Shown here: piece by piece, positions 18,632-31,933 of the stretch
How the letters are laid out: every line of letters begins with the position of its first letter
Position numbering within the stretch: the first letter of the stretch is position 1
DNA from: Blastocatellia bacterium
GTDB lineage: Bacteria > Acidobacteriota > Blastocatellia > Chloracidobacteriales > JADJPF01
DNA length: 64,000 bases
Assembly (NCBI GenBank): GCA_025057015.1
Contig: JANWYG010000010.1
Span: forward strand, 280,506-344,505
Reading direction: 5' to 3'
Program-made: the position numbers and the translations under genes
Notes under the pieces: generated by a model
Database searches by the model: none
What the model was told of the DNA's origin: nothing
The model's input: only the letters and a program-made list of their open reading frames with translations

Positions 18632-19831
18632 ATGCCTGAGTTTGAATGCAGACTAGGAACACCCACCGGAGAGATAGTTAGCAGAAAGTATGAAGCCGAG
18701 CAGGTACCAGAGCTGCGTCGTAGGCTAGAGAGAGAGGGCTACAAAGTCTTCAGCATCGTGCGGCTAGGTGGTGGCTCGCGAAGAAATATAGGCAGGAAGC
18801 TTTCACCGGAGGAATTCCTCGTGTTCAATCAGCAGTTCTCGGCTATGCTGAGGGCAGGACTGCCCATTTTGCAAGCTTTGGGTATACTGCTCAGGCGACA
18901 GAAGCAAGGTTTCTTTCGCAGCGTGTTAGAAGATGTGGAGGCTAAAGTGCGAAACGGTGCGGCGCTGTCAGAGGCGTTTGCTGCTCAGCGAGGAATCTTT
19001 CCTAGGCTTTATACTGCATCGATACTGGCTGGCGAGCGTTCTGGAGAACTTGACCAAGTACTGCTTAGGTACGTTCAGTACACAAAGACAATAACGGAAC
19101 TTAGAAGAAAGCTTAAGAAAACTCTCATATATCCGGCAATTCTACTGACGGCGTCCGTAGGGCTGGTCATCTTGATGACTACTTATGTCATACCCAAATT
19201 TGCTTCGCTGTATGAGGGCAACGCTGACCGCTTACCATACCTTACACAGGTTATAATAGCTATATCTAGGACAGTTTCGGAAAACCTCCTCTGGATAGCG
19301 CCTCTTGTCATCGGTCTAGCCGTATTGTTTGCTTTTTGGCGAAACACTCAGGAAGGTAGAAGAAGTATAGATCAACTTATGCTTAAGCTGCCTCTGGTTG
19401 GGGATTTGATAAAATATGGCACTACGGCACAGTTGTGCCGAAGTCTTTCAACGCTGCTAGCTGGTGGGATCACGCTGCTTGAGTCGTTCGAGATAGCATC
19501 TGAGTCGGTAACTAATACAGCGCTACGTCAAAGTATGGCTACCGTAGCGGCGAAGATGCGTACTGGTGAGTCTTTTACAGAGAGCTTGCAACAGGCTGGC
19601 TGGGTGCCCGAGTTGGCGCTTGATATGATAGGAGTAGGTGAGCGTTCAGGAGCGCTGCGGGAAATGCTAGACGAGGTAGCGAACTTTTTTGACGCGGAAC
19701 TTGACTTACGGCTGACTGCACTGACTTCGCTAATAGAGCCGGTTATTTTGGTCATAATGGGTAGCGTTGTAATGACAATTCTGCTTGCTATGTATTTGCC
19801 TATACTGGAACTGATGCGTAGGAACGTGTGA
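18632..19831 (+). CDS. Inner-membrane platform protein, GspF/PilC family
   Basis: The 399-residue protein is the polytopic platform that links the assembly ATPase to the pseudopilus or pilus. It has an N-terminal region of about 70 residues, then two repeats of the GspF domain. The first repeat begins FNQQFSAMLRAGLPILQAL and is followed by a membrane segment near residue 170. The second begins LCRSLSTLLAGGITLLESFEIA and is followed by membrane segments ending LEPVILVIMGSVVMTILLAMYLPIL. It is the first gene of a cluster continuing to 25728 and overlaps the ATPase gene. The family does not by itself separate type II secretion from type IV pili. Confidence 0.93.
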   Translation: MPEFECRLGTPTGEIVSRKYEAEQVPELRRRLEREGYKVFSIVRLGGGSRRNIGRKLSPEEFLVFNQQFSAMLRAGLPILQALGILLRRQKQGFFRSVLEDVEAKVRNGAALSEAFAAQRGIFPRLYTASILAGERSGELDQVLLRYVQYTKTITELRRKLKKTLIYPAILLTASVGLVILMTTYVIPKFASLYEGNADRLPYLTQVIIAISRTVSENLLWIAPLVIGLAVLFAFWRNTQEGRRSIDQLMLKLPLVGDLIKYGTTAQLCRSLSTLLAGGITLLESFEIASESVTNTALRQSMATVAAKMRTGESFTESLQQAGWVPELALDMIGVGERSGALREMLDEVANFFDAELDLRLTALTSLIEPVILVIMGSVVMTILLAMYLPILELMRRNV

Positions 19832-21429
19832 TGTCTAGAGTAAAAGAGAATATTTCTGAAGAAGAACAGGCAAAGAGACTTGCTGCACGTTACAGGGTCG
19901 ATTATGTCGATCTGAGTACTTATCCTGTGGACGTAGAGCTAATAAATAGCATGCCTATAGAGTTGATGCTCAGGAATTTCTTCGTGCCGCTTAGACGCAA
20001 TCAAGGGACGTTGATTGTTGCGGTAGATGATCCGGGAAATTTCGAGCTGCTTGATGAGCTTGCTTCGCTGCTAAAGACGAAAATACGCGCAGCCGTAGCT
20101 ACCAGAACGGCTATAGAACAGATGCTGAAACGTAGTGAGACCTCGCAGCGAGTCCTCCAGGATGCCACTCGCTCGCTTGGCATGCAGGTAGTGAAGGAGA
20201 CCGATCAAGGTGAGGAAGTGCTCGACATAGATCGGCTTACTGAAGAGACTTCGCCGATAGTCAAACTTGTCGACACTATTATACTGAATGCTTTAGAACG
20301 CCGCGTCTCGGACATACATATAGAGACTTCTGACAACGCTGTGAACGTAAAATATCGAATAGACGGTGCTCTTTATCGAGCTGTAGAACCTATAGATATA
20401 CAGCATCATTCTACGATTATTTCTCGTATTAAGGTGATGTCAGAGCTCGACATAGCCGAAAGGCGTGTGCCTCAAGATGGACGTTTTCGAGTACGAATGC
20501 GGGGCCGACTCATCGACTTTCGCGTCTCGATTATACCTACTATACACGGCGAAGACGCTGTAATACGTATCCTGGACAAGGAGCAAATAAACGAATCCTT
20601 TCGCGAGTTGAACCTTTCTGTGGTTGGTTTTGAACCGGACGATCTTAGACGTTTTCGCAAGTTCATAGCTGAGCCTTATGGGATGGTACTAGTTACCGGG
20701 CCTACTGGATCGGGCAAGACTACTACGCTTTATGCTGCCCTTAACGAGATACGCAATGATGAAGATAAGATAATTACCATAGAAGATCCGGTGGAATACC
20801 AGCTGCGCGGGATAACACAAATACCTGTAAACGAGAAGAAGGGATTGACGTTTGCTCGCGGGCTACGTTCGATTTTGCGTCACGATCCGGACAAGATAAT
20901 GGTCGGCGAGATAAGAGATCCGGAGACTGCTCAGATAGCCATACAGTCGGCTTTAACAGGTCACTTGGTGTTTACTACGGTACACGCAAACAATGTAATA
21001 GATGTGATAGGAAGGTTTTTGAATATGGGTGTCGAGCCATATAACTTCGTAAGCTCGCTCAACTGCGTGTTAGCACAACGATTGGTGCGCATTCTCTGCA
21101 GTGAATGTAAGCGCCGGTATCAACCCACGGACGAAGAATTGATAGAGTCAGGGCTCAGTCCTGTGCGTTATCGGCATCAGACTTTCTACGAACAGGTGGG
21201 CTGTGAGGCTTGTCATTTTACCGGTTATCGCGGCCGAACGGCTATACATGAGCTGCTTGATCTCAGTGATAACATCAGAGAGCTGATACTGGCGCGCAGG
21301 CCTGGTTCGGAGATTCGTCGTGCTGCTCGTGAAGAAGGACTTACGAGCCTGCGCGAATCGGCCCTTAAAAAGGTTTTTGCAGGTATAACCACCTTGCGGG
21401 AGTGTAATAGAGTGACCTTTGTCGAGTAG
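19831..21429 (+). CDS. Secretion/pilus assembly ATPase, GspE/PilB family
   Basis: The 532-residue hexameric ATPase powers pseudopilus or pilus assembly. An N-terminal MshEN-like domain (about 1-140) precedes the catalytic part: the Walker A GPTGSGKTTT is near residue 290, the Asp box and Walker B region contain ILRHDPDKIMVGEIRDPETA, the His box is LTGHLVFTTVHAN, and a tetracysteine zinc site is formed by CSEC and CEAC. I take the ATG at 19831, which overlaps the preceding TGA by one base; a GTG at 19828 is possible but adds only one residue. No twitching-type PilT gene follows. Confidence 0.94.
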   Translation: MSRVKENISEEEQAKRLAARYRVDYVDLSTYPVDVELINSMPIELMLRNFFVPLRRNQGTLIVAVDDPGNFELLDELASLLKTKIRAAVATRTAIEQMLKRSETSQRVLQDATRSLGMQVVKETDQGEEVLDIDRLTEETSPIVKLVDTIILNALERRVSDIHIETSDNAVNVKYRIDGALYRAVEPIDIQHHSTIISRIKVMSELDIAERRVPQDGRFRVRMRGRLIDFRVSIIPTIHGEDAVIRILDKEQINESFRELNLSVVGFEPDDLRRFRKFIAEPYGMVLVTGPTGSGKTTTLYAALNEIRNDEDKIITIEDPVEYQLRGITQIPVNEKKGLTFARGLRSILRHDPDKIMVGEIRDPETAQIAIQSALTGHLVFTTVHANNVIDVIGRFLNMGVEPYNFVSSLNCVLAQRLVRILCSECKRRYQPTDEELIESGLSPVRYRHQTFYEQVGCEACHFTGYRGRTAIHELLDLSDNIRELILARRPGSEIRRAAREEGLTSLRESALKKVFAGITTLRECNRVTFVE

Positions 21430-21470
21430 GCTAGCTGCTAGAGTCAACGTTTAGAGTTTGGAGATGCCAC

Positions 21471-23987
21471 ATGAATGCGAAGGTAAAATTTCAGTTAATC
21501 GTTTTCATCCTGCTGAGCTTTTTACCTGTTGGCGTATTAGCCGATAGTCCTGGCAAGCATTTCAAGAAGGGGAAGGAGTATGAGTTAAATCAGCAGTGGG
21601 ATCTAGCAGCTGAGCAGTATGCACTTGCGCTTAGTCAGCGACCTGACAACGTAGAGTACAGGCTGCATATGATGAGAGCACTTGCTAATGCTTCTCTGAT
21701 GTTTATGGAACGGGGCAAGCAGTTGATGCAGCAGAAGGATTATGAGGGTGCCTATCAAGCCTTTCGTCAGGCATACAGTTACGATAACACTAACGAGATG
21801 GCGCTGGCCCGTATGCGTGAGATGCTGGAACGGCTTGGCATACCTATAGAGCGTTCTGAGCTGCCTTCTGATGAGATACAGAAGATAAGTGCTCGCATGG
21901 AACAGTTCAGAAAAGAGGCTCTGCCGAATCGTAAGTTACCTACCTACAAATTTAACTACTCTTCTGACACTACGCTGGAAAGCATTATTCGCAGCATAGC
22001 GAAGCTTGCTAGACTTAATGTGGTTTTTGAAGATTCTGTAGCACGAACCGTAGAGACCAAAAAAGTAAGGTTCGAGGTAGAAAACATTACCGCTCCGCAA
22101 GCGCTTGACATACTGTTTGACTCGCAACGGCTTGACTATTCTATTGTGGCACCTCGTACGATAATGGTCTATCCCGAAGCTATAGCTAATAAACAGCGCT
22201 ATGAACAGCTGTATGTGCGGACGTTTTATATCAAAAATGCTGATATAAACGATGCTCGTAACGTTTTACAGACTGCTGTCGGTAGCAAACAGATAGTGCC
22301 ACTTAAGCAGCTCAATGCTCTAGTAGTGCGTGATACGCTGGAGAATCTCAAGATAGCGGAAATGATCCTTGACGGGATAGACAAGACGCAGTCAGAGATA
22401 GTACTGGACATAAACCTCTACGAAGTAAGCAATACGGTACTGACGCAGCTTGGGAATCAACTGGCAGTGCCGGCAGAGGGTGCTAAAGGTGTTAATCTCA
22501 GCAATGTAGGCGGTATTGGACAAGGAGGGCTTAGATCCGGTGCAGCAGGAGGACTGTTTGGCGGGCCTGTTGGGTTGGCACTGGCTTTACCATCGAGCGC
22601 GTTGTCTTTACTTCAGAGCAAGTCAAATTCGCGCCTTATAGCTTCATCGCAGGTACGCGCTTTTGAGAATGAGACTGCACAAATAAACATAGGTCAGCGT
22701 GTGCCGATACAGACGGCTACTCTTCCTACTGGAGTGGTAGTAAATCCTTCGCCTGGACAGCCAAATCCGCAGCCGAATCCAGGCTTTGGCGGTTTTGGAG
22801 TTGCACAGTTTCAGTACCAAGATGTGGGTCTGAACGTGGATGTACAGCCACAGGTCTTCAATGACTACGTGCAGATGAAAGTAACTATAGAGCTCTCAGG
22901 TATTCAAGCCGGACCGTCTTCGTTTAATCCCATATTTACGCAGCGCAAAATCAAAGGTACGACGAGGATAAAGGAAGGTGAGACTGGTATCATTGCTAAC
23001 GTGATGCGTCTGGATAAGCGCAATACTCGCGTTGGGCTGCCAATACTCAGCTTTGTGCCTCTTCTGGGACGTGTTTTCTCTACTCCTAAGGAAGAGGACG
23101 ATGCAATCAACATAGTCATCACGGTGACACCACATATACTGCGTTCTCCTATACAGACTGACTTAGACAAGATTTCTGTAGGCCCAAATGGTACAGCAAA
23201 CTTTTATGGGGCAGCTCTTTCGCTTGAAGAGTATGTGATTCGTGAAGATGAAGCTGAGTATCAACAGTCGCTTCGAGCGAAGGATACTCCGTCTACGCCA
23301 TCCGAACAGCAACGGCAGCCGCAACAGCGCTCCGACATAATGCCTGTAGGTCAACAACCTGCTCAACAGCCGATGCCAAGTAGTATGGCAGCTCAAACTG
23401 AAGTTCGTCCGCCGGCAAGTAGTCAACCGCCGGTAGGAGCACAGACTCAGCCTCAGCATCCTGCTGAAAGAAGCAAAACTAATAATTTGCCACCTCAACC
23501 GCCGATAAACGTAATGCTGAGGGTACTAAACCCGCAGATTAAGGTAGGGCAAAGCGGGTTGATAGGCGTGTTGCTTGGCTCGAGCGGTCCGCAGATTACT
23601 TCTGCTAAGCTAACGTTGAGGTACAATCCTAACGTTATCCAGATAACTGCCGTCAGAGATGGCGGGCTTATGAGTCTACTTGGCAACACCGCTCAGATGG
23701 ATTTTGCAGACGATGGTGGCGTACTTTATGTCAGCCTCGAACGTCCTGCAGGTGCTCAGCCGGTTGCTGCCAGTGGGCAACTTGTGCTCGTCTATTTTGC
23801 TGGCGTAGGACCTGGTTCTGCTGACCTTAACTTGTCAGAAATACAGCTACTCGGGCCTGGTGGACAGCCGCTACAGACGACTATTACGGGTGGGAATATC
23901 AATGTAGAAGGACCTCCTCCGGACGCTACGACTGGTGGTGATGAAGATGAGGATGATGAAGAAGATGACGAAGATGAAGACGAGTAA
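21471..23987 (+). CDS. Secretin (GspD/PilQ family) with C-terminal cohesin-like domain and acidic tail
   Basis: The 838-residue protein forms the outer-membrane gate. It has a signal peptide (about 1-24), TPR-type repeats (about 28-130), a secretin N-domain (about 160-230), N1-like domains (about 240-330), and a secretin core ending near 565 (QRVPIQT, VTPHIL). A Gln/Pro-rich linker follows. Residues 675-815 look like a cohesin-type beta-sandwich (INVMLRVLNPQIKVGQ, LTLRYNPNVIQI, GQLVLVYFAG), and the protein ends in an unbroken run of Asp and Glu. TPR plus secretin plus cohesin is an arrangement I associate with acidobacterial secretins. The acidic tail is coded by GAT/GAA repeats that are read in another frame as the leader region of the next gene. 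Confidence 0.9.
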   Translation: MNAKVKFQLIVFILLSFLPVGVLADSPGKHFKKGKEYELNQQWDLAAEQYALALSQRPDNVEYRLHMMRALANASLMFMERGKQLMQQKDYEGAYQAFRQAYSYDNTNEMALARMREMLERLGIPIERSELPSDEIQKISARMEQFRKEALPNRKLPTYKFNYSSDTTLESIIRSIAKLARLNVVFEDSVARTVETKKVRFEVENITAPQALDILFDSQRLDYSIVAPRTIMVYPEAIANKQRYEQLYVRTFYIKNADINDARNVLQTAVGSKQIVPLKQLNALVVRDTLENLKIAEMILDGIDKTQSEIVLDINLYEVSNTVLTQLGNQLAVPAEGAKGVNLSNVGGIGQGGLRSGAAGGLFGGPVGLALALPSSALSLLQSKSNSRLIASSQVRAFENETAQINIGQRVPIQTATLPTGVVVNPSPGQPNPQPNPGFGGFGVAQFQYQDVGLNVDVQPQVFNDYVQMKVTIELSGIQAGPSSFNPIFTQRKIKGTTRIKEGETGIIANVMRLDKRNTRVGLPILSFVPLLGRVFSTPKEEDDAINIVITVTPHILRSPIQTDLDKISVGPNGTANFYGAALSLEEYVIREDEAEYQQSLRAKDTPSTPSEQQRQPQQRSDIMPVGQQPAQQPMPSSMAAQTEVRPPASSQPPVGAQTQPQHPAERSKTNNLPPQPPINVMLRVLNPQIKVGQSGLIGVLLGSSGPQITSAKLTLRYNPNVIQITAVRDGGLMSLLGNTAQMDFADDGGVLYVSLERPAGAQPVAASGQLVLVYFAGVGPGSADLNLSEIQLLGPGGQPLQTTITGGNINVEGPPPDATTGGDEDEDDEEDDEDEDE

Positions 23988-24450
23988 AGGATTGTCACTT
24001 CTTGAGCTGATACTGACTCTTGCTATACTTTCCGTTTTGGCAGCAGCGACGCTCCCTCTTGCTCAAAACACAGTCAAGCGTAATCGTGAAATAGAACTGC
24101 GACGGGCATTGCGAGAGATACGAACTGCTATAGACAGATTCAAAGCACTCAATGACTCTACGAATCCTCCTGGACAACTGATTCCTATACAGGAAAGGAC
24201 GCAAAGTGGTTATCCAAAGAAACTCGAGGTTCTCTATGAGGGATTCGTGCCAGCTAATCGCGTGGATGATCAAAAGATAAGATTCTTGCGCCGGTTGCCC
24301 ATAGATCCTATGACAGGGGATGATGACTGGGGCACGCGCTCTTCTACTGATGAGCCAGATAGCCTAGGTACTAACGGGGACGACGTCTTTGACGTCTATT
24401 CGAAAAGTGATGGAATAGCACTAGATGGCAGCAAGTATAGCGAATGGTAA
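23974..24450 (+). CDS. Type II secretion pseudopilin (GspG-like), first copy
   Basis: The 158-residue prepilin has a leader ending KTSKG, then LSLLELILTLAILSVLAAATLPL with the conserved Glu at position 5 after the cleavage glycine. The C-terminal part has the DPMTGDDDW segment typical of major pseudopilins of the GspG type. The frame is open upstream as far as a GTG at 23935, but that would put a Met/Lys-rich leader inside the secretin's acidic tail. I prefer the ATG at 23974, which gives a six-residue leader and a 14-base overlap with the secretin. Confidence 0.85.
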   Translation: MKTSKGLSLLELILTLAILSVLAAATLPLAQNTVKRNREIELRRALREIRTAIDRFKALNDSTNPPGQLIPIQERTQSGYPKKLEVLYEGFVPANRVDDQKIRFLRRLPIDPMTGDDDWGTRSSTDEPDSLGTNGDDVFDVYSKSDGIALDGSKYSEW

Positions 24451-24841
24451 CGGTGTGAATCGGCAACATGGTTTTACACTTTTGGAGCTGGTAGTAGTAG
24501 TAACGGTAATGGTGGTGCTTGCAACTCTAGTTGTGCCTTTGTTTCAGAACGTGCTTCAACAGGCTAAGGAAGCTGCCCTCAAGGATACGCTGTTTAAGAT
24601 GCGGGACAGTATCGATAAGTATACACTTGACAAGGAGGAAGCTCCGCAGACTTTAGAGGATCTAGTACAGGCAAAGTATTTGCGAGAGGTACCTGTTGAT
24701 CCTATTACGGGTCGCAATGACACTTGGGAGGTAGAGTTAGAAGAACAGCCTACAAGTAGAAATGGACAGAGGGGCATAATAAATGTCTACAGCGGAGCTG
24801 AGGGTGTTTCTTCCTCTGGTAAGCCTTATAGGGAGTTTTGA
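24425..24841 (+). CDS. Type II secretion pseudopilin (GspG-like), second copy
   Basis: The 138-residue prepilin has a leader ending NRQHG and then FTLLELVVVVTVMVVLATLVVPL, with Glu at position 5. The body includes LREVPVDPITGRNDTW and IINVYSG, as in calcium-binding GspG pseudopilins. It overlaps the end of the first pseudopilin by 26 bases. The ATG at 24425 gives a 16-residue leader; a GTG at 24455 would give a more typical six-residue leader. Neither has a clear Shine-Dalgarno sequence. The two pseudopilins share order and length and probably arose by duplication. Confidence 0.85.
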   Translation: MAASIANGNGVNRQHGFTLLELVVVVTVMVVLATLVVPLFQNVLQQAKEAALKDTLFKMRDSIDKYTLDKEEAPQTLEDLVQAKYLREVPVDPITGRNDTWEVELEEQPTSRNGQRGIINVYSGAEGVSSSGKPYREF

Positions 24842-25728
24842 TGCTGTACGGTTTTTTTTTCAAGGTGCCCTATCCACGCAGAGCAGCAGGTTTTTGTGAT
24901 GACAAGCTTCAGTTGCTGCAGCTTGCGCGCAAGAAGATAGGCAAGTTTGCCGTGGAAAGCACAGCTTGCTTATCGAATGTCATAAGACCGAAGTTTGACA
25001 GCTCAAATATACCCGATCTACGGGCTACTGCAGAGCGAATAGCTGCTGCAGTTAAAAAGGTGGGACTTTCTAGCCAGCGTCGCTGGTCAGTAGTGCTTCC
25101 ACAGCCTACCGTGCGAAACTTACTTGTACAGTTTGATGATCCTCCACACTCGACACCTGAACTTGAAGAGGCGATAAATTGGCGGGTAGAAAAGGTTACT
25201 GGAATAGAAGTTTCTCAGCTGCGAATGTCTTACCAACCGGCATCTCGCGATGGGCTGCGCTACTTGGTAAGCGTTATGGTAAATGAGGTGTTGGCTGAGT
25301 ATGAACAGTTGTTCAAGTTGCTTGGATGGGACGTGGGATTGATCTTACCAGGACCGCTGGCGGAGATGCTGCTATTGCCAGAGACGGCTGACGAAAGGTT
25401 GCTTATCAGTTTCTATGCAGAGGGTTTCGTGGCGATAGCGATGAAAGCTGACGACATGGTCTTACTTCGTACGCAGGAAACAGATGAGAAGGAGGATGAT
25501 TTATATCGTATGGCAGCATACTATGGTGAGAGGCTGCTGTCGTCGGCTGCTGAGGCGTTTGTTTTGGGGAGTCCTGAAGAATGTGAGTTGAGCTGTAGGG
25601 TTTTCAATGAGGTTTGTCCTAGTGTGCAGGTCTATACGCCGTCGCAACTGCCTTTGCTCGACCAAGTTGAAGCTGCAGACTTCCGATTGCTAGTGGCACC
25701 TGCTGGAGCTGCTTCACTTGCATTTTAG
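24841..25728 (+). CDS. PilM/GspL-like cytoplasmic assembly protein
   Basis: The 295-residue protein has the actin-like pattern of PilM and the cytoplasmic domain of GspL: VVLPQPTVRNLLVQFDDPP near residue 80, EEAINWRVEKVTGI, SVMVNEVLAEYEQLFKLLGW and a late DLYRMAAYYGERLL. It has no membrane segment, which favours PilM over full-length GspL. The usual PilN and PilO partners do not follow, because the next gene is on the other strand. The ATG at 24841 overlaps the preceding TGA by one base; a TTG at 24838 is less likely. Confidence 0.7.
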   Translation: MLYGFFFKVPYPRRAAGFCDDKLQLLQLARKKIGKFAVESTACLSNVIRPKFDSSNIPDLRATAERIAAAVKKVGLSSQRRWSVVLPQPTVRNLLVQFDDPPHSTPELEEAINWRVEKVTGIEVSQLRMSYQPASRDGLRYLVSVMVNEVLAEYEQLFKLLGWDVGLILPGPLAEMLLLPETADERLLISFYAEGFVAIAMKADDMVLLRTQETDEKEDDLYRMAAYYGERLLSSAAEAFVLGSPEECELSCRVFNEVCPSVQVYTPSQLPLLDQVEAADFRLLVAPAGAASLAF

Positions 25729-27998: not shown

Positions 27999-28877
27999 AT
28001 GAAAAAGATGATAACCGCTTCTTGTTTTCTAGCGTTGGCGCTGTCTGTCGGTGGCCAAGAGTTGGATGCGAAAAAGTTTTTTAGGCCTGTTCCTACCGCT
28101 AGTTCGGCTGTGGAACTGGCTGATATTGAGGCGCTTTATAAAGCGGTAGAAGTGCAGAAACAGCTAGAGCTAGGCGAGGCATTTTTGGCTAAGTATCCTG
28201 AAAGTAGCCTGCGTGGGATAGCGTATCGGTATGTGGTCGCTTCGCTCGTACAGCTGAAGCAGAGTGGCAGGGCTATCGAAGTGGCTATGAAAGCGCTTGC
28301 TGAGCGTAAAGACAACCTCAGCGTGATGGCTGAAATATGCCGGATGGGTAGCGAGGAGGCTCGCAACAAGGTGTTTACAAACAGTACGGTAGCTTTGGAG
28401 ATGGGGACTCGGGCGTTGGCAATGGTAGATGTAGGTACAATACCATATGAATATAGTGATGCCGACTGGAATGCTCGCCGGGAGAGTTTTGTAGGAAGTT
28501 TGCATAAAGCGCTTGGTACAATCTACTTCTACCAGGAGAAGTGGGCAGATGCGGCACGCCACTTCTTGAGTGCGTCTCAGATGTTGCCTACTGATCCTTA
28601 TAGCTACTATATGAACGCCAAGTCTCGCTACAATGAGGCTTATCAGAAGAGGAAGCCTATACCGGCAGAAGAAATAGTTGGAATGCTTGCAAAAGCCTAT
28701 GTCTTGACTGATAACGATACATATAGGTGGTTACAGTCAACAGTTGATATGGAGTTAAAATATGTTGCTGCTCAGTCTAAACTTGCCTCGCCGCTAGATA
28801 GCTACATTCAGGCAGCTCGCGATCAAGCAGTGGTAAACGCTTCTGCGCCAATGCCTGCAGCTTCACAAAAGCATTGA
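27999..28877 (+). CDS. Exported helical-repeat (TPR-like) protein
   Basis: The 292-residue protein starts at the ATG at 27999, preceded by a purine-rich ribosome site (GGGGGAGAGAGGGGT). It begins with a signal peptide (MKKMITASCFLALALSVGGQ). The frame extends to a TTG at 27921, but the signal peptide supports the inner start. The body is helical with TPR-like units (SLHKALGTIYFYQEKWADAARHF, MLPTDPYSYYMNAKSRY). No family name can be given. A terminator follows directly, so it is transcribed as a single gene or as the end of the PilZ unit. Confidence 0.75.
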   Translation: MKKMITASCFLALALSVGGQELDAKKFFRPVPTASSAVELADIEALYKAVEVQKQLELGEAFLAKYPESSLRGIAYRYVVASLVQLKQSGRAIEVAMKALAERKDNLSVMAEICRMGSEEARNKVFTNSTVALEMGTRALAMVDVGTIPYEYSDADWNARRESFVGSLHKALGTIYFYQEKWADAARHFLSASQMLPTDPYSYYMNAKSRYNEAYQKRKPIPAEEIVGMLAKAYVLTDNDTYRWLQSTVDMELKYVAAQSKLASPLDSYIQAARDQAVVNASAPMPAASQKH

Positions 28878-28892
28878 TCTCTTTTCCCCATT

Positions 28893-28926
28893 CCCTCTCT
28901 TGGAATCTGCTAAGAGAGGGATTTTT
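28893..28926 (+). terminator. Intrinsic terminator after the exported TPR-like gene
   Basis: CCCTCTCTT (28893-28901) pairs with AAGAGAGGG (28912-28920) around a ten-base loop and is followed by ATTTTTC. It sits 16 bases after the stop codon. Confidence 0.85.
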
Positions 28927-28943
28927 CTTTCTTGACAGAGAGG

Positions 28944-28972
28944 TTGCTTTTGCGTGAGGAGTGATATATATT
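28944..28972 (+). promoter_or_regulatory. Possible promoter of the FHA/caspase-like gene group
   Basis: TTGCTT (28944-28949) is separated by 17 bases from TATATT (28967-28972), five of six consensus positions for the -10 box. It lies just downstream of a terminator and 57 bases before the ATG at 29029. The TTGACA at 28933 has no -10 box at the proper distance. Confidence 0.45.
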
Positions 28973-29028
28973 CCTAACTTCAAAGAGGGAGTTTTATCTG
29001 TAAGCAACATGTCTCGCTTAAAGGCTAG

Positions 29029-30129
29029 ATGTCGAACCTAATGATGATTAAGTTGCAAGCGAAGAACTCCAGTTCCGGAGAAGTGGAAGCAGGGAAGCTC
29101 TTTCCTACAGAGCTAGACAAGGTCAGCATAGGTCGCCATCCTGATAGTTTCATCCATCTGAATGCCGCTCATATTTCCAAAGAGCATGCCGTCATACTTC
29201 GCAGAAGTGATGGGTATTTTCTTATAGACCGTTCGACAAACGGAACGCTGCTAAATGGTGTGAGAATAGAGCGTGAGAGGCCTATGCCTATAAAGCCAGG
29301 AGATAGGATTTCTATAGCTGAGTTTCAGATAGATGTTCTTGATGCTACTGACAAGAATGGCTCTTCGGTTGAAGAGCAACAAGAAGATGAAATTTTTGAC
29401 ACACCTAGCAGTTTTGGCGATGTCATAAAAGCTATAGACGCTGGCGAAGAAGCTTCTTATTTGGTCTATGTTGGTGGTGAGCGGGATGGACAGCGAATAG
29501 AGCTAAGGGGAAGCACAAGCGAAGTGCTCGTAGGCCGTTCGAGAAATTGCCACGTGTTTATTAACCACCCGGCAATAGCACCTATGCATGCTAAAGTGCG
29601 GATGGACTGGGCAGGTATTGCTGTCTATGACCTAAATGTCCAGCAAGGAAGCGGTAGCGGCGTCTTTGTAAACGGTGTGAGAATTACAAGTAGTAGGCGG
29701 TTGCGTAATGGCGACGAAATCTCTTTCGGAATACCGGTAAGCGCCGGCGGTGTCAAGCTGATACTGTATGATCGCAATTCGCTTTCTACAGAGAATCTTC
29801 TAGGGTTACCACCTCCGATTACCACTGCTGAGCCTGAAAATAAGCCTTCTTCTGTGCCGGTTAAGGAAGAGTCAGTTAAGGCTGAAGAACCAGCTAAACC
29901 AGAGCCTAAAGCAGAGTCTAAAGAAACTGGACAAGAAGCAAAGAATACCGAAGATATGGCTGAAGACCAAGCACAAGATGCACCTGCGGCCAGCGGAGCA
30001 GTTGCTTTGTTGGATCTGAATAGGCAGATATATGCTGGAATCACTTTGCGCGAGGCACTTACCATAGTGGCTCTTCTGTTGCTTATCGTCGTCTTCTGCA
30101 TCATAGCCTTCAGTTTCTTGGGTATCTGA
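29029..30129 (+). CDS. Two-FHA-domain, tail-anchored membrane protein
   Basis: The 366-residue protein has two forkhead-associated domains that bind phosphothreonine. The first is at about 24-95 (SIGRHPDSFIHL, ISKEHAVI, STNGTLLNGVRI). The second is at about 140-235 (LVGRSRNCHVFIN, APMHAKV, SGVFVNGVRI). Both keep the GR...S/H...NG pattern, although the S/H pair of the second is altered (APMH). An acidic Pro/Glu/Lys-rich linker follows, and the last 25 residues form a membrane helix (ALTIVALLLLIVVFCIIAFSF), so both FHA domains face the cytoplasm. It is probably a reader of Ser/Thr kinase signalling; a kinase gene lies at 14103-16628. Confidence 0.92.
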   Translation: MSNLMMIKLQAKNSSSGEVEAGKLFPTELDKVSIGRHPDSFIHLNAAHISKEHAVILRRSDGYFLIDRSTNGTLLNGVRIERERPMPIKPGDRISIAEFQIDVLDATDKNGSSVEEQQEDEIFDTPSSFGDVIKAIDAGEEASYLVYVGGERDGQRIELRGSTSEVLVGRSRNCHVFINHPAIAPMHAKVRMDWAGIAVYDLNVQQGSGSGVFVNGVRITSSRRLRNGDEISFGIPVSAGGVKLILYDRNSLSTENLLGLPPPITTAEPENKPSSVPVKEESVKAEEPAKPEPKAESKETGQEAKNTEDMAEDQAQDAPAASGAVALLDLNRQIYAGITLREALTIVALLLLIVVFCIIAFSFLGI

Positions 30130-30209
30130 AAGCTTGACAGCTTGAGGAAGTTTGTCTTTTTTAAAAAAGTGCGGAATTCTGCCTGTTTTCATAGGTGTTT
30201 AAGGAAGTT

Positions 30210-31295
30210 ATGAAGCTGTTAGCGCTGCTTCCGCTCCTTGCCTTAAATGTGGTACATCAAGACCTCGTAGAACGCTTTCAACCAGAAAAGACGTGGTTGG
30301 TAGTTGTCGGTGCGCTTGAAAGCAAACAGTACACGTCTTTTCCTAAAACTGGTCGTAGAGACCAACGCCTTGTAGAAACGCTTAAGAGCCGAGGAGTTCC
30401 TGACAAGCAGATCCTGTTGCTGCAGGATGCTGGCGCGACCTTAAAGCAGGTCTTACAGGTGTTGGAGAAGTTTTATGCTAAAGCTCAACCAGATCACCTT
30501 CTGATATTTTATTTCTGTGGTCATGGATATTTGGATGAAGCTGGGCGGGGCCACCTAGCTCTTTATGATAAGCCGCTTTCCATAACTCAGCTTATTAATG
30601 CCATAGAGTTAGGATACAAAGGCTACAAAGTGTTTATTGCTCTAGACTCTCCAAGGTCCTCAGAACTGATACGTGAACTTAACGGAAGACGTACGGCACA
30701 TCATTTTGCTGCCGTGGCATCTTCTTCGTCAAGCCAACTTAACTCTACCCGCTGGACATTTACCGATGCCTTGATAGATGTCTTCAAAGGTACGCCTTGT
30801 GCTGATCAAAACGGTGATGGACAAATCGATCTACGTGAGCTTTGCAAGTTCCTTGCCGAAGACGTAGAGATAGCTGAGGAACAACTGGTTAGCTACACTA
30901 CCCAAGGTGATTTCAGATACGACTTTATTTTCTCCGACGTTGCTTATAAGCGCTCCAACCGCCGTCAGTGCGAGCGGGTAACTACAGCCAAAAGTGGTGG
31001 TATGGTGGCTCGTATTGTTAGTGTTGAAGGCGACCTCTGTAAGTTGGACTTTCTTGGTACAGACGAAAATGACGCTACTACTGTGCAAGTGTCGGAACTA
31101 ATGCCAGTAAAACCAGTGAGTTATGAGGTAGGGCGGATTGTCGAGGTCAACTGGCGCGGCGGTTGGTACCTGGCAAGGATACTACAAGTACGAGGTGGAA
31201 TTCATCAAGTGCACTATGAAGGCTATTCCAAAGTTTGGGACGAATGGGTTTCATCTAGGCGTATTCGTCCTAGGCAAGGAGAAAAACAGTGGTAG
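30210..31295 (+). CDS. Exported caspase-fold protein with EF-hand and Tudor-like modules, catalytic Cys missing
   Basis: I start the 361-residue protein at the ATG at 30210, preceded by AAGGA; a GTG at 30195 is less likely. A signal peptide (MKLLALLPLLALNVV) is followed by a C14 caspase-like domain: WLVVVGA, a long helix, then FYFCGHG with the catalytic-type His at 105. The strand that normally ends D-A-C reads FIALDSPRSS (D146-S-P), so the nucleophile is absent. A canonical 12-residue EF-hand loop (DQNGDGQIDLRE, about 199-210) follows. The C terminus has two small barrel-like modules. The second (GRIVEVNWRGGWYLARIL ... WDEWV, about 307-355) resembles Tudor-knot/agenet modules best known from eukaryotes. 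Its stop overlaps the exonuclease gene by seven bases. It is probably a non-proteolytic binding protein. Confidence 0.75.
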   Translation: MKLLALLPLLALNVVHQDLVERFQPEKTWLVVVGALESKQYTSFPKTGRRDQRLVETLKSRGVPDKQILLLQDAGATLKQVLQVLEKFYAKAQPDHLLIFYFCGHGYLDEAGRGHLALYDKPLSITQLINAIELGYKGYKVFIALDSPRSSELIRELNGRRTAHHFAAVASSSSSQLNSTRWTFTDALIDVFKGTPCADQNGDGQIDLRELCKFLAEDVEIAEEQLVSYTTQGDFRYDFIFSDVAYKRSNRRQCERVTTAKSGGMVARIVSVEGDLCKLDFLGTDENDATTVQVSELMPVKPVSYEVGRIVEVNWRGGWYLARILQVRGGIHQVHYEGYSKVWDEWVSSRRIRPRQGEKQW

Positions 31296-31933
31296 TTTAT
31301 GATGTAGAGATAGTGCGTGCAGTGCTTGGCCCGGATGAGACCAAAGTCGCTGGCTTGGAATACGCTGCCGGTTGGACAGATCTTGATAATTTAGGAATTG
31401 CTGTTATCTGTGCTTTCGACTTGCAAACTGGTCGTTATAGAGTCTTCTTGCAAGACAATCTGGATGAGTTCGTGACCCTCATTTCTGAACGTCGCTTTGT
31501 TGCTGGTTACAATAATCAGCGTCTAGACGACCGGCTGCTGGAAGTGAACGGACTGTGGCCAGTAGATATGACCTCTTATGACTTGCTTAGAGAGATCTGG
31601 ATTGCGGCCGGTGCCGACCCTGATGCTCCTTTTGATAGAACTAAACAAGGCGGACTCGGGCTGGATGCTATGGCTAGAGCTAATCGAGTCGGTAGTAAGG
31701 TGACCAAGGAGAACATAGCGGTTCTATGGCAGCGTGGCCATAAGGGAAAAGTCATAGACCATTGTTTGAACGATGTTAGGTTGACCCTGCTGCTTATGGC
31801 CCAGCTGCAACGCCAAGGTTACCTGCTTGATTCTCGTTCAGTAGATAGAAAGCTTTGGGTAAAACCTCCGTTTTCAAACGATAGTGCTGCAGCTGCTCAT
31901 CTTGCAGCACTTGCTGTACAGCCTGCTTCTTAG
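31289..31933 (+). CDS. DEDD-type 3'-5' exonuclease-like protein (RNase H fold)
   Basis: The 214-residue protein has the ribonuclease-H-like exonuclease layout. Motif I is YDVE near the N terminus (D and E ligands), motif II is AGYNNQRLDDRLL, and motif III is HCLNDVRLT with the final Asp. This order matches predicted 3'-5' exonucleases related to DNA polymerase proofreading domains. The start is a GTG at 31289 with AAGGAG seven bases upstream, and it overlaps the caspase-like gene. It has no signal peptide, so it acts in the cytoplasm, unlike its neighbour. A repair or nucleic-acid turnover role is likely; which substrate is not shown. Confidence 0.75.
   Translation: MVVYDVEIVRAVLGPDETKVAGLEYAAGWTDLDNLGIAVICAFDLQTGRYRVFLQDNLDEFVTLISERRFVAGYNNQRLDDRLLEVNGLWPVDMTSYDLLREIWIAAGADPDAPFDRTKQGGLGLDAMARANRVGSKVTKENIAVLWQRGHKGKVIDHCLNDVRLTLLLMAQLQRQGYLLDSRSVDRKLWVKPPFSNDSAAAAHLAALAVQPAS

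Follow-up and report, generated by a model that had tools for sequence, protein, structure and literature searches.

A probably exported caspase-like protein with proline at the nucleophile position, an EF-hand loop and a Tudor-knot barrel in a Blastocatellia genome

The 64,000-nucleotide stretch of Blastocatellia DNA analysed here (the window) carries at 30210..31295 on the + strand a gene for a caspase-like protein of 361 amino acids, probably exported, in which the nucleophilic cysteine of the caspase family has been replaced by proline; the evidence comes from the open reading frame, Pfam, a structural model and family alignments, and the initial annotation had the start, end and strand of the gene right. 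Both the domain architecture and dead caspases as such were known already, and what is new here is a Cys-to-Pro pseudoprotease within that architecture. We propose that the window protein is an exported pseudoprotease that binds peptides without cutting them, a member of an exported caspase/Tudor family, and we give this reading an even chance of being correct.

A predicted caspase fold with proline at the nucleophile position

The AlphaFold2 model of the window protein, for which an alignment of 33 sequences served as input, has a mean pLDDT of 92.9 and a pTM of 0.90. Together with Foldseek, VIA-align and profile alignment it assigns a caspase (clan CD) fold to residues 24-243 (30279..30938, + strand). 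Foldseek matches of the model include MALT1, yeast and Candida metacaspases and legumain, with a best E of 1.2e-9. Among the matches listed (n=50), VIA-align gave Z-scores of 18.6-20.6 against legumain, metacaspases and caspases over 192-216 aligned residues, the top match having a Z of 20.6 and a deviation of 2.8 Å over 199 residues; residues 24-267 are those covered by a fifth or more of the VIA-align rows, and the barrels described below lie outside this structural search. The fold is thus common to the window protein, the metacaspases and legumain (Z about 20 over about 200 residues), whereas identity to them is 9-19% among the matches listed and their catalytic Cys is absent from the window protein. 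The Pfam Peptidase_C14 match (residues 73-134, E 0.0037) is under its cut-off, and the caspase assignment therefore rests on the family alignment and the model. No p10-type Pfam match was obtained, yet the model runs on with a helix and a strand beyond the p20 part. A relative that bears the catalytic dyad, L026 from Spartobacteria, was modelled too and gives the same picture of the fold (pLDDT 92.1, Z up to 20.8). The caspase fold claimed in the initial annotation is borne out by a structure prediction of this quality with clan CD matches; a model lacking the fold, the outcome that would have counted against it, did not occur.

The catalytic histidine, His105, is kept within a GHG motif (30519..30527, + strand) in the family alignments. 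At the nucleophile site, D-x-C-x-S-G is replaced by DSPRSS (residues 146-151; 30645..30662, + strand), encoded by GAC TCT CCA AGG TCC TCA, and both alignments and profile put Pro148 in the nucleophile column. When the window protein was aligned with 49 relatives (36 at 90% identity), the histidine was found in 50/50 sequences, and 49/49 relatives have Cys where the window protein has Pro148. The larger set of 102 distinct relatives gives the same result for all that reach the columns (His 101/101, Cys 100/100, with L072 and L177, incomplete at the Cys column, outside the Cys count), as do the 89 relatives that span a barrel, where Cys is found in 88/88 with a letter at the nucleophile column. 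The family profile pairs the Pro148 column with the active-site Cys of metacaspase-4 from Arabidopsis, where the wild-type chain has DSCHSG and the chain of a C139A-titled entry DSAHSG, and the D-x-C motif of metacaspases aligns by profile with this site. Comparison of the five cysteines of the window protein with 83 non-redundant relatives yielded no replacement: the Cys103 column is Cys in 17/83, all 17 of which also have the proper nucleophile Cys, and the columns of the remaining four are Cys in 0, 1, 0 and 3 of the 83. The alignment thus agrees with the earlier description of LDSPRSS and the intact GHG histidine, and no aligned Cys elsewhere in the active site takes over.

The His-Cys dyad of an active C14-type peptidase is accordingly absent from the window protein, His105 being kept and Pro148 standing in the Cys column, and a p20-type fold without that dyad is what defines a pseudo-orthocaspase. 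We infer that the protein is proteolytically inactive. Both candidate S1 acids, Asp51 and Asp146, are nevertheless retained. Asp51 (30360..30362, + strand), a conserved acid where the first helix of the caspase domain begins, is a probable S1 pocket residue by alignment, model and comparison with TbMCA2, for which the available text of PMC4357240 names Asp95 (in the first helix) and Asp211 among potential S1 pocket residues. Asp211 is two residues before Cys213, the latter numbered as in the title of entry 4afr, and Asp51 would correspond to Asp95, judging by its position at the start of the first helix.

EF-hand loop, barrels and leader

Pfam and the alignments place an EF-hand loop, DQNGDGQIDLRE, at residues 199-210 (30804..30839, + strand). 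All six tracked positions of D199-x-N201-x-D203-G204-x-I206-x-x-x-E210 are present, and with them the ligands 1, 3, 5 and 12 and the Gly at position 6 by which such a loop was recognised. The EF-hand_1 Pfam match (residues 198-216, E 8.6e-4) scores 19.1 bits against a cut-off of 25.4, and because it is under threshold this assignment rests on the family alignment. An EF-hand loop by itself scores low. Ligands 1, 3, 5 and 12 are retained in 79/83 relatives; since these Cys-bearing proteins keep them, the loop does not point to a binding role that the window protein alone would have. The initial annotation had placed the loop after the caspase fold: its ligands are complete as described, but it is one loop that sits within the caspase domain, in its C-terminal half and between model helices 183-193 and 208-223, and not a separate module. 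The candidate loop may bind Ca2+, and a calcium-dependent binding protein, as the gene product had been described, would be consistent with the evidence. The Ca2+ site of TbMCA2 consists of four Asp according to the available text of PMC4357240, whereas the window protein has an EF-type loop instead.

Two small barrels follow, their folds being assigned from sequence and predicted strands. Barrel 1 (residues 251-299; 30960..31106, + strand; model and alignments) is degenerate and keeps 1/6 of the tracked aromatics, whereas barrel 2 (residues 303-356; 31116..31277, + strand; Pfam and alignments) is a Tudor-knot with 7/7, its WWYYYWW set being complete, and its Pfam match (residues 306-353, E 8e-7) is above the cut-off. 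Both of the barrels noted earlier are therefore present, one of them Tudor-knot-like, but aromatic positions are kept in the second only. The aromatic and D-E-W positions of the Tudor/chromo/MBT domains of PHF20L1, MRG/EAF3 and L3MBTL align with barrel 2; these are eukaryotic chromatin proteins, and their single-protein E-values are weak (0.0025 at best). The earlier view of the Tudor-knot as mainly a eukaryotic chromatin type does not hold in this setting, as fusions of caspase-like peptidases to chromo/Tudor-like domains, in secreted bacterial proteins, were described in 2018 (Kaur, Iyer, Subramanian, Aravind; PMC5906684).

The reading frame is intact over 361 codons and ends in TAG at 31293-31295. 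An in-frame GTG is also present at 30195, five codons 5' of the ATG at 30210, and the ATG is favoured because AAGGAAG (30201..30207, + strand), which looks like a Shine-Dalgarno sequence, sits directly 5' of it. Hydropathy and the model mark residues 1-17 (30210..30260, + strand) as a hydrophobic leader and probable signal peptide: the best 11-mer has a Kyte-Doolittle mean of 2.35, and a hydrophobic leader is found at a threshold of 1.9 in 33/34 relatives tested alike. The signal peptide of the initial annotation is plausible to this extent; the leader of the window protein is, however, short and by eye lacks a clear A-x-A cleavage site, and residues 7-17 are modelled as a helix at low pLDDT. 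Export to the periplasm or cell surface is probable.

Relatives, divergence and gene neighbourhood

A search for the same domain order elsewhere, as the initial annotation had suggested, found it in Acidobacteriota, Planctomycetota, Bacteroidota and others, and because it recurs in other genomes the architecture is more than chance. Full-length relatives include two in G005, of the same order, and one in G015, of the same class. A scan with one genome per species gave 56 loci, of which nine are remote caspases and one is incomplete; the 56 include Spartobacteria, Blastocatellia and other Acidobacteria, Planctomycetes and Ardenticatenales as well as Runella, Emticicia, Lacihabitans, Haliscomenobacter and Eremiobacterota. 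The 50-row alignment excludes the incomplete L072 and the nine remote caspases L073-L081, whose scores against the family are 20-48 bits. In the phylum of the window, 30/396 sampled genomes match a four-member profile at E <= 1e-10 and six do so at E < 1e-100, and 21/162 genomes of its class match at E <= 1e-25. With a 33-member profile at E <= 1e-30 and the starting genome included, matches were found in 25/392 sampled genomes of the phylum of L040 (Planctomycetaceae), 3/395 of the phylum of Runella and 3/387 of the phylum of L026; genomes in these scans are samples of each phylum, and no more than four or five candidates were scored in each genome. At E <= 0.1, the 33 aligned rows including the window protein match Peptidase_C14 in 33, Tudor-knot in 24, Agenet in 21 and EF-hand_1 in 13 cases, and a barrel is spanned by 89/102 relatives, the other 13/102 spanning none.

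Closer to home the family is sparse. The other three genomes of the same family, G001-G003 (completeness 83-95%), have no member at E <= 1e-25, G002 and G003 giving a weak caspase-like match (E 5.1e-6). A second member in the genome of the window itself (97% complete) was found at E <= 1 neither with the family profile nor in a single-protein search; PF00656 has no match there either, a weak result since it also misses the window gene. Two existing labels were considered and rejected: the EACC1-associated caspase (NF047832), at 38.4 bits against a curated cut-off of 140, and a phage-defence assignment, the generic caspase match in PADLOC being weak (E 5.2e-6, 23.9 bits; 46.8 for L026). The window protein has no PHROGs match at E <= 0.01.

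The fusions of PMC5906684 resemble the window protein in being secreted and in combining a caspase-like domain with a chromo/Tudor-like barrel that has a partial aromatic cage, and combinations with EF-hands are mentioned as well. They differ in being called caspase-like peptidases and in coming from planctomycetes, cyanobacteria, bacteroidetes and chloroflexi, whereas the nucleophile is lost in the window protein and its genome is of Acidobacteriota type. Pseudo-orthocaspases, which make up 8.6% of bacterial orthocaspases in the available text of Klemencic and others 2019 (PMC6426788), likewise have a caspase p20-type fold without the His-Cys dyad; as described there, they are mostly from Alphaproteobacteria and Cyanobacteria with Tyr-Ser as the commonest pair, whereas the window protein has His-Pro, an EF loop and a Tudor barrel, and the words acidobacteria and tudor are absent from the main text of that paper. 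Among the matches listed in a search of the open-licence literature, no dead member of the caspase/EF/Tudor architecture was found.

The window protein has diverged mainly in its caspase part and barrel 1. It keeps 21 of the 24 columns that are at least 90% conserved among the 83 non-redundant relatives, and the three lost (C148P, G151S and S178N) fall either at the nucleophile or immediately ahead of the WTFT motif. As many as 9/83 Cys-bearing relatives have lost at least four of the 24 (nine in L098), and it is the placement of the lost columns, not their number, by which the window protein stands out. In the smaller set of 36 relatives, 7/37 conserved columns are lost in the window protein, five of them other than the Cys or its Gly, and the remote relatives L068, L070 and L071 exceed its losses in a leave-one-out count while keeping the Cys. 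A quick tree gives the caspase part of the window protein an end branch of 2.14 against a median of 0.25; no supported set in this tree, in which the nucleophile columns were included, contains the window protein. The ratio of barrel-2 to caspase identity is 1.20, the next highest being 1.08 (rank 1 of 26, among 25 relatives with all modules and the window protein), and the EF and barrel-1 ratios rank 7 and 21 in the same comparison. By these ratios barrel 2 has moved least and the caspase part and barrel 1 most, although the high barrel-2 value owes something to the divergence of the caspase part, and one row of the comparison, L036, is misaligned in barrel 2. The second copy in G005, L033, has an intact dyad but a barrel 1 that, like that of the window protein, is poor in aromatics, and a longer branch (1.27).

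Downstream, an ORF of 214 codons (31289-31933, + strand) has its GTG start within the final codons of the pseudo-caspase gene and is preceded by AAGGAG (31276-31281), the two together spanning 31276..31933. This arrangement makes translational coupling to the pseudo-caspase gene probable. The ORF product has no Pfam or PHROGs match, a PDB match at chance level (E 0.86) and one weak match among 19 other genomes; by eye it reads like a DEDD exonuclease. Upstream, 28002-30129 on the + strand is taken up by a TPR gene and, after it, a gene (29029..30129, + strand) that has two FHA stretches by Pfam and, by eye, a C-terminal membrane helix. The TPR and FHA pair is present in G001 (L132; TPR by eye), where a different gene follows after 28 bases, and the FHA gene is kept in G002 and G003; no caspase gene lies beside the FHA orthologues of G001-G003 within the 1.5 kb examined. 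A terminator-like hairpin of 12 pairs (28892-28921, + strand) lies just 3' of the TPR gene, and the FHA gene that it precedes may begin a separate transcript; promoter- and terminator-like sites are no commoner than in shuffles.

No neighbourhood was common across the 19 loci compared, for which the products of ten neighbours were scanned; neighbours are common only to small groups of near relatives. In one such group (L059 4593-5930, L062 4497-5927 and L064 3474-4814) the dyad-bearing caspase gene overlaps the end of an upstream gene common to all three; L059 and L062 are from Eremiobacterota, and the upstream products of L059 and L064, the two that were scanned, match ATP-grasp models near the cut-offs. 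The gene at L044 6994-7698, adjoining another dyad-bearing relative, has weak GP30.3 and NADAR matches under cut-off. Elsewhere in the window, translations at 18632-25728 (+ strand) resemble a type IV pilus or type II secretion cluster, with an inner-membrane protein, an ATPase, secretin-like, pseudopilin and PilM-like products.

Proposed function and alternatives

With the nucleophile lost and both the pocket acids and the barrel aromatics kept, a basic-peptide binder is the simplest model. The protein would be sent to the periplasm or cell surface, where its caspase fold, with Pro at the position of the nucleophile Cys, would no longer cut. The cleft would retain the acids with which metacaspases bind a basic side chain, and barrel 2 the aromatic positions by which other members of its superfamily hold an amino group that is alkylated or basic, such that envelope or matrix peptides of basic, and perhaps modified, character would be held uncleaved. 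Ca2+ in the EF loop would make the caspase domain more rigid in its C-terminal half. Inactivity, the identity of the ligand, a pocket role for the acids, calcium binding and export are each inferred. Because the Cys-to-Pro change is seen in one genome only, conservation of the dead form cannot be shown. Counted against the binder are the long end branch, as relaxed constraint would give, the decayed barrel 1 and the weak leader.

These same features favour the main rival, slow gene decay, in which the protease stopped functioning in this lineage and the remaining sequence drifts while its fold can still be recognised. The lost catalytic residues fit it as well, as does the family's record in G001-G003, where no member reaches E <= 1e-25 and two genomes give a weak match only. 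Decay is harder to reconcile with an intact 361-codon frame, 21/24 conserved columns, a complete EF loop and barrel 2, a start of ribosome-binding type and, by eye, an apparent coupling to the next gene, and we regard it as rather unlikely, if a serious contender. A single genome and assembled contigs might also raise the suspicion of a sequencing or assembly error at the nucleophile; several base changes separate the site from D-C-C-x-S-G, no frameshift is present and the gene has diverged overall, so that we give such an error next to no credence.

The protein could instead still be an enzyme with another nucleophile, Ser147, Ser150, Ser151 or Cys103, given that His105 and Asp146 are kept, that serines crowd the site and that Cys103 is two residues from His105. 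However, the relatives with Cys in the Cys103 column all have the proper Cys, which speaks against a substitute, Ser150 is common in the family (35/36), and Pro together with the loss of Gly151 alters the nucleophile loop; we consider this highly improbable. An inhibitor or partner that pairs or competes with an active relative, like c-FLIP, has a precedent in the inactive human caspase-8 homologue, described as a caspase-8 dimerization partner in the available text of PMC6426788, and the fold matches include entry 3h11, caspase-8:c-FLIPL. The same text doubts such a role for prokaryotic pseudo-orthocaspases, and the 97% complete genome offers no other family member at E <= 1 and, for what a search that misses the window gene is worth, no PF00656 match. 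A partner might come from a neighbouring cell, but overall we think the partner role improbable. Somewhat less doubtful, though still unlikely, is an envelope reader, in which a caspase fold gated by calcium through the EF loop would hold instead of cutting, and the Tudor barrel would recognise an extracellular basic residue that is methylated or carries some other modification.

Returning to the exported binder and its family, the many members that have the dyad and the one that lacks it form a natural pair in which the EF loop and Tudor barrel are common to both, and this pair lets the roles of the barrel and the calcium-type loop be separated from that of the protease. It also raises the question of what ligands the exported Tudor-type barrels of bacteria have. 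Eukaryotic chromatin readers have been proposed, in the available text of PMC5906684, to derive from bacterial Tudor-type barrels, and if the envelope-reader reading were true, the window protein would be to bacteria what a chromatin reader is to eukaryotes, with a dead protease as its scaffold.
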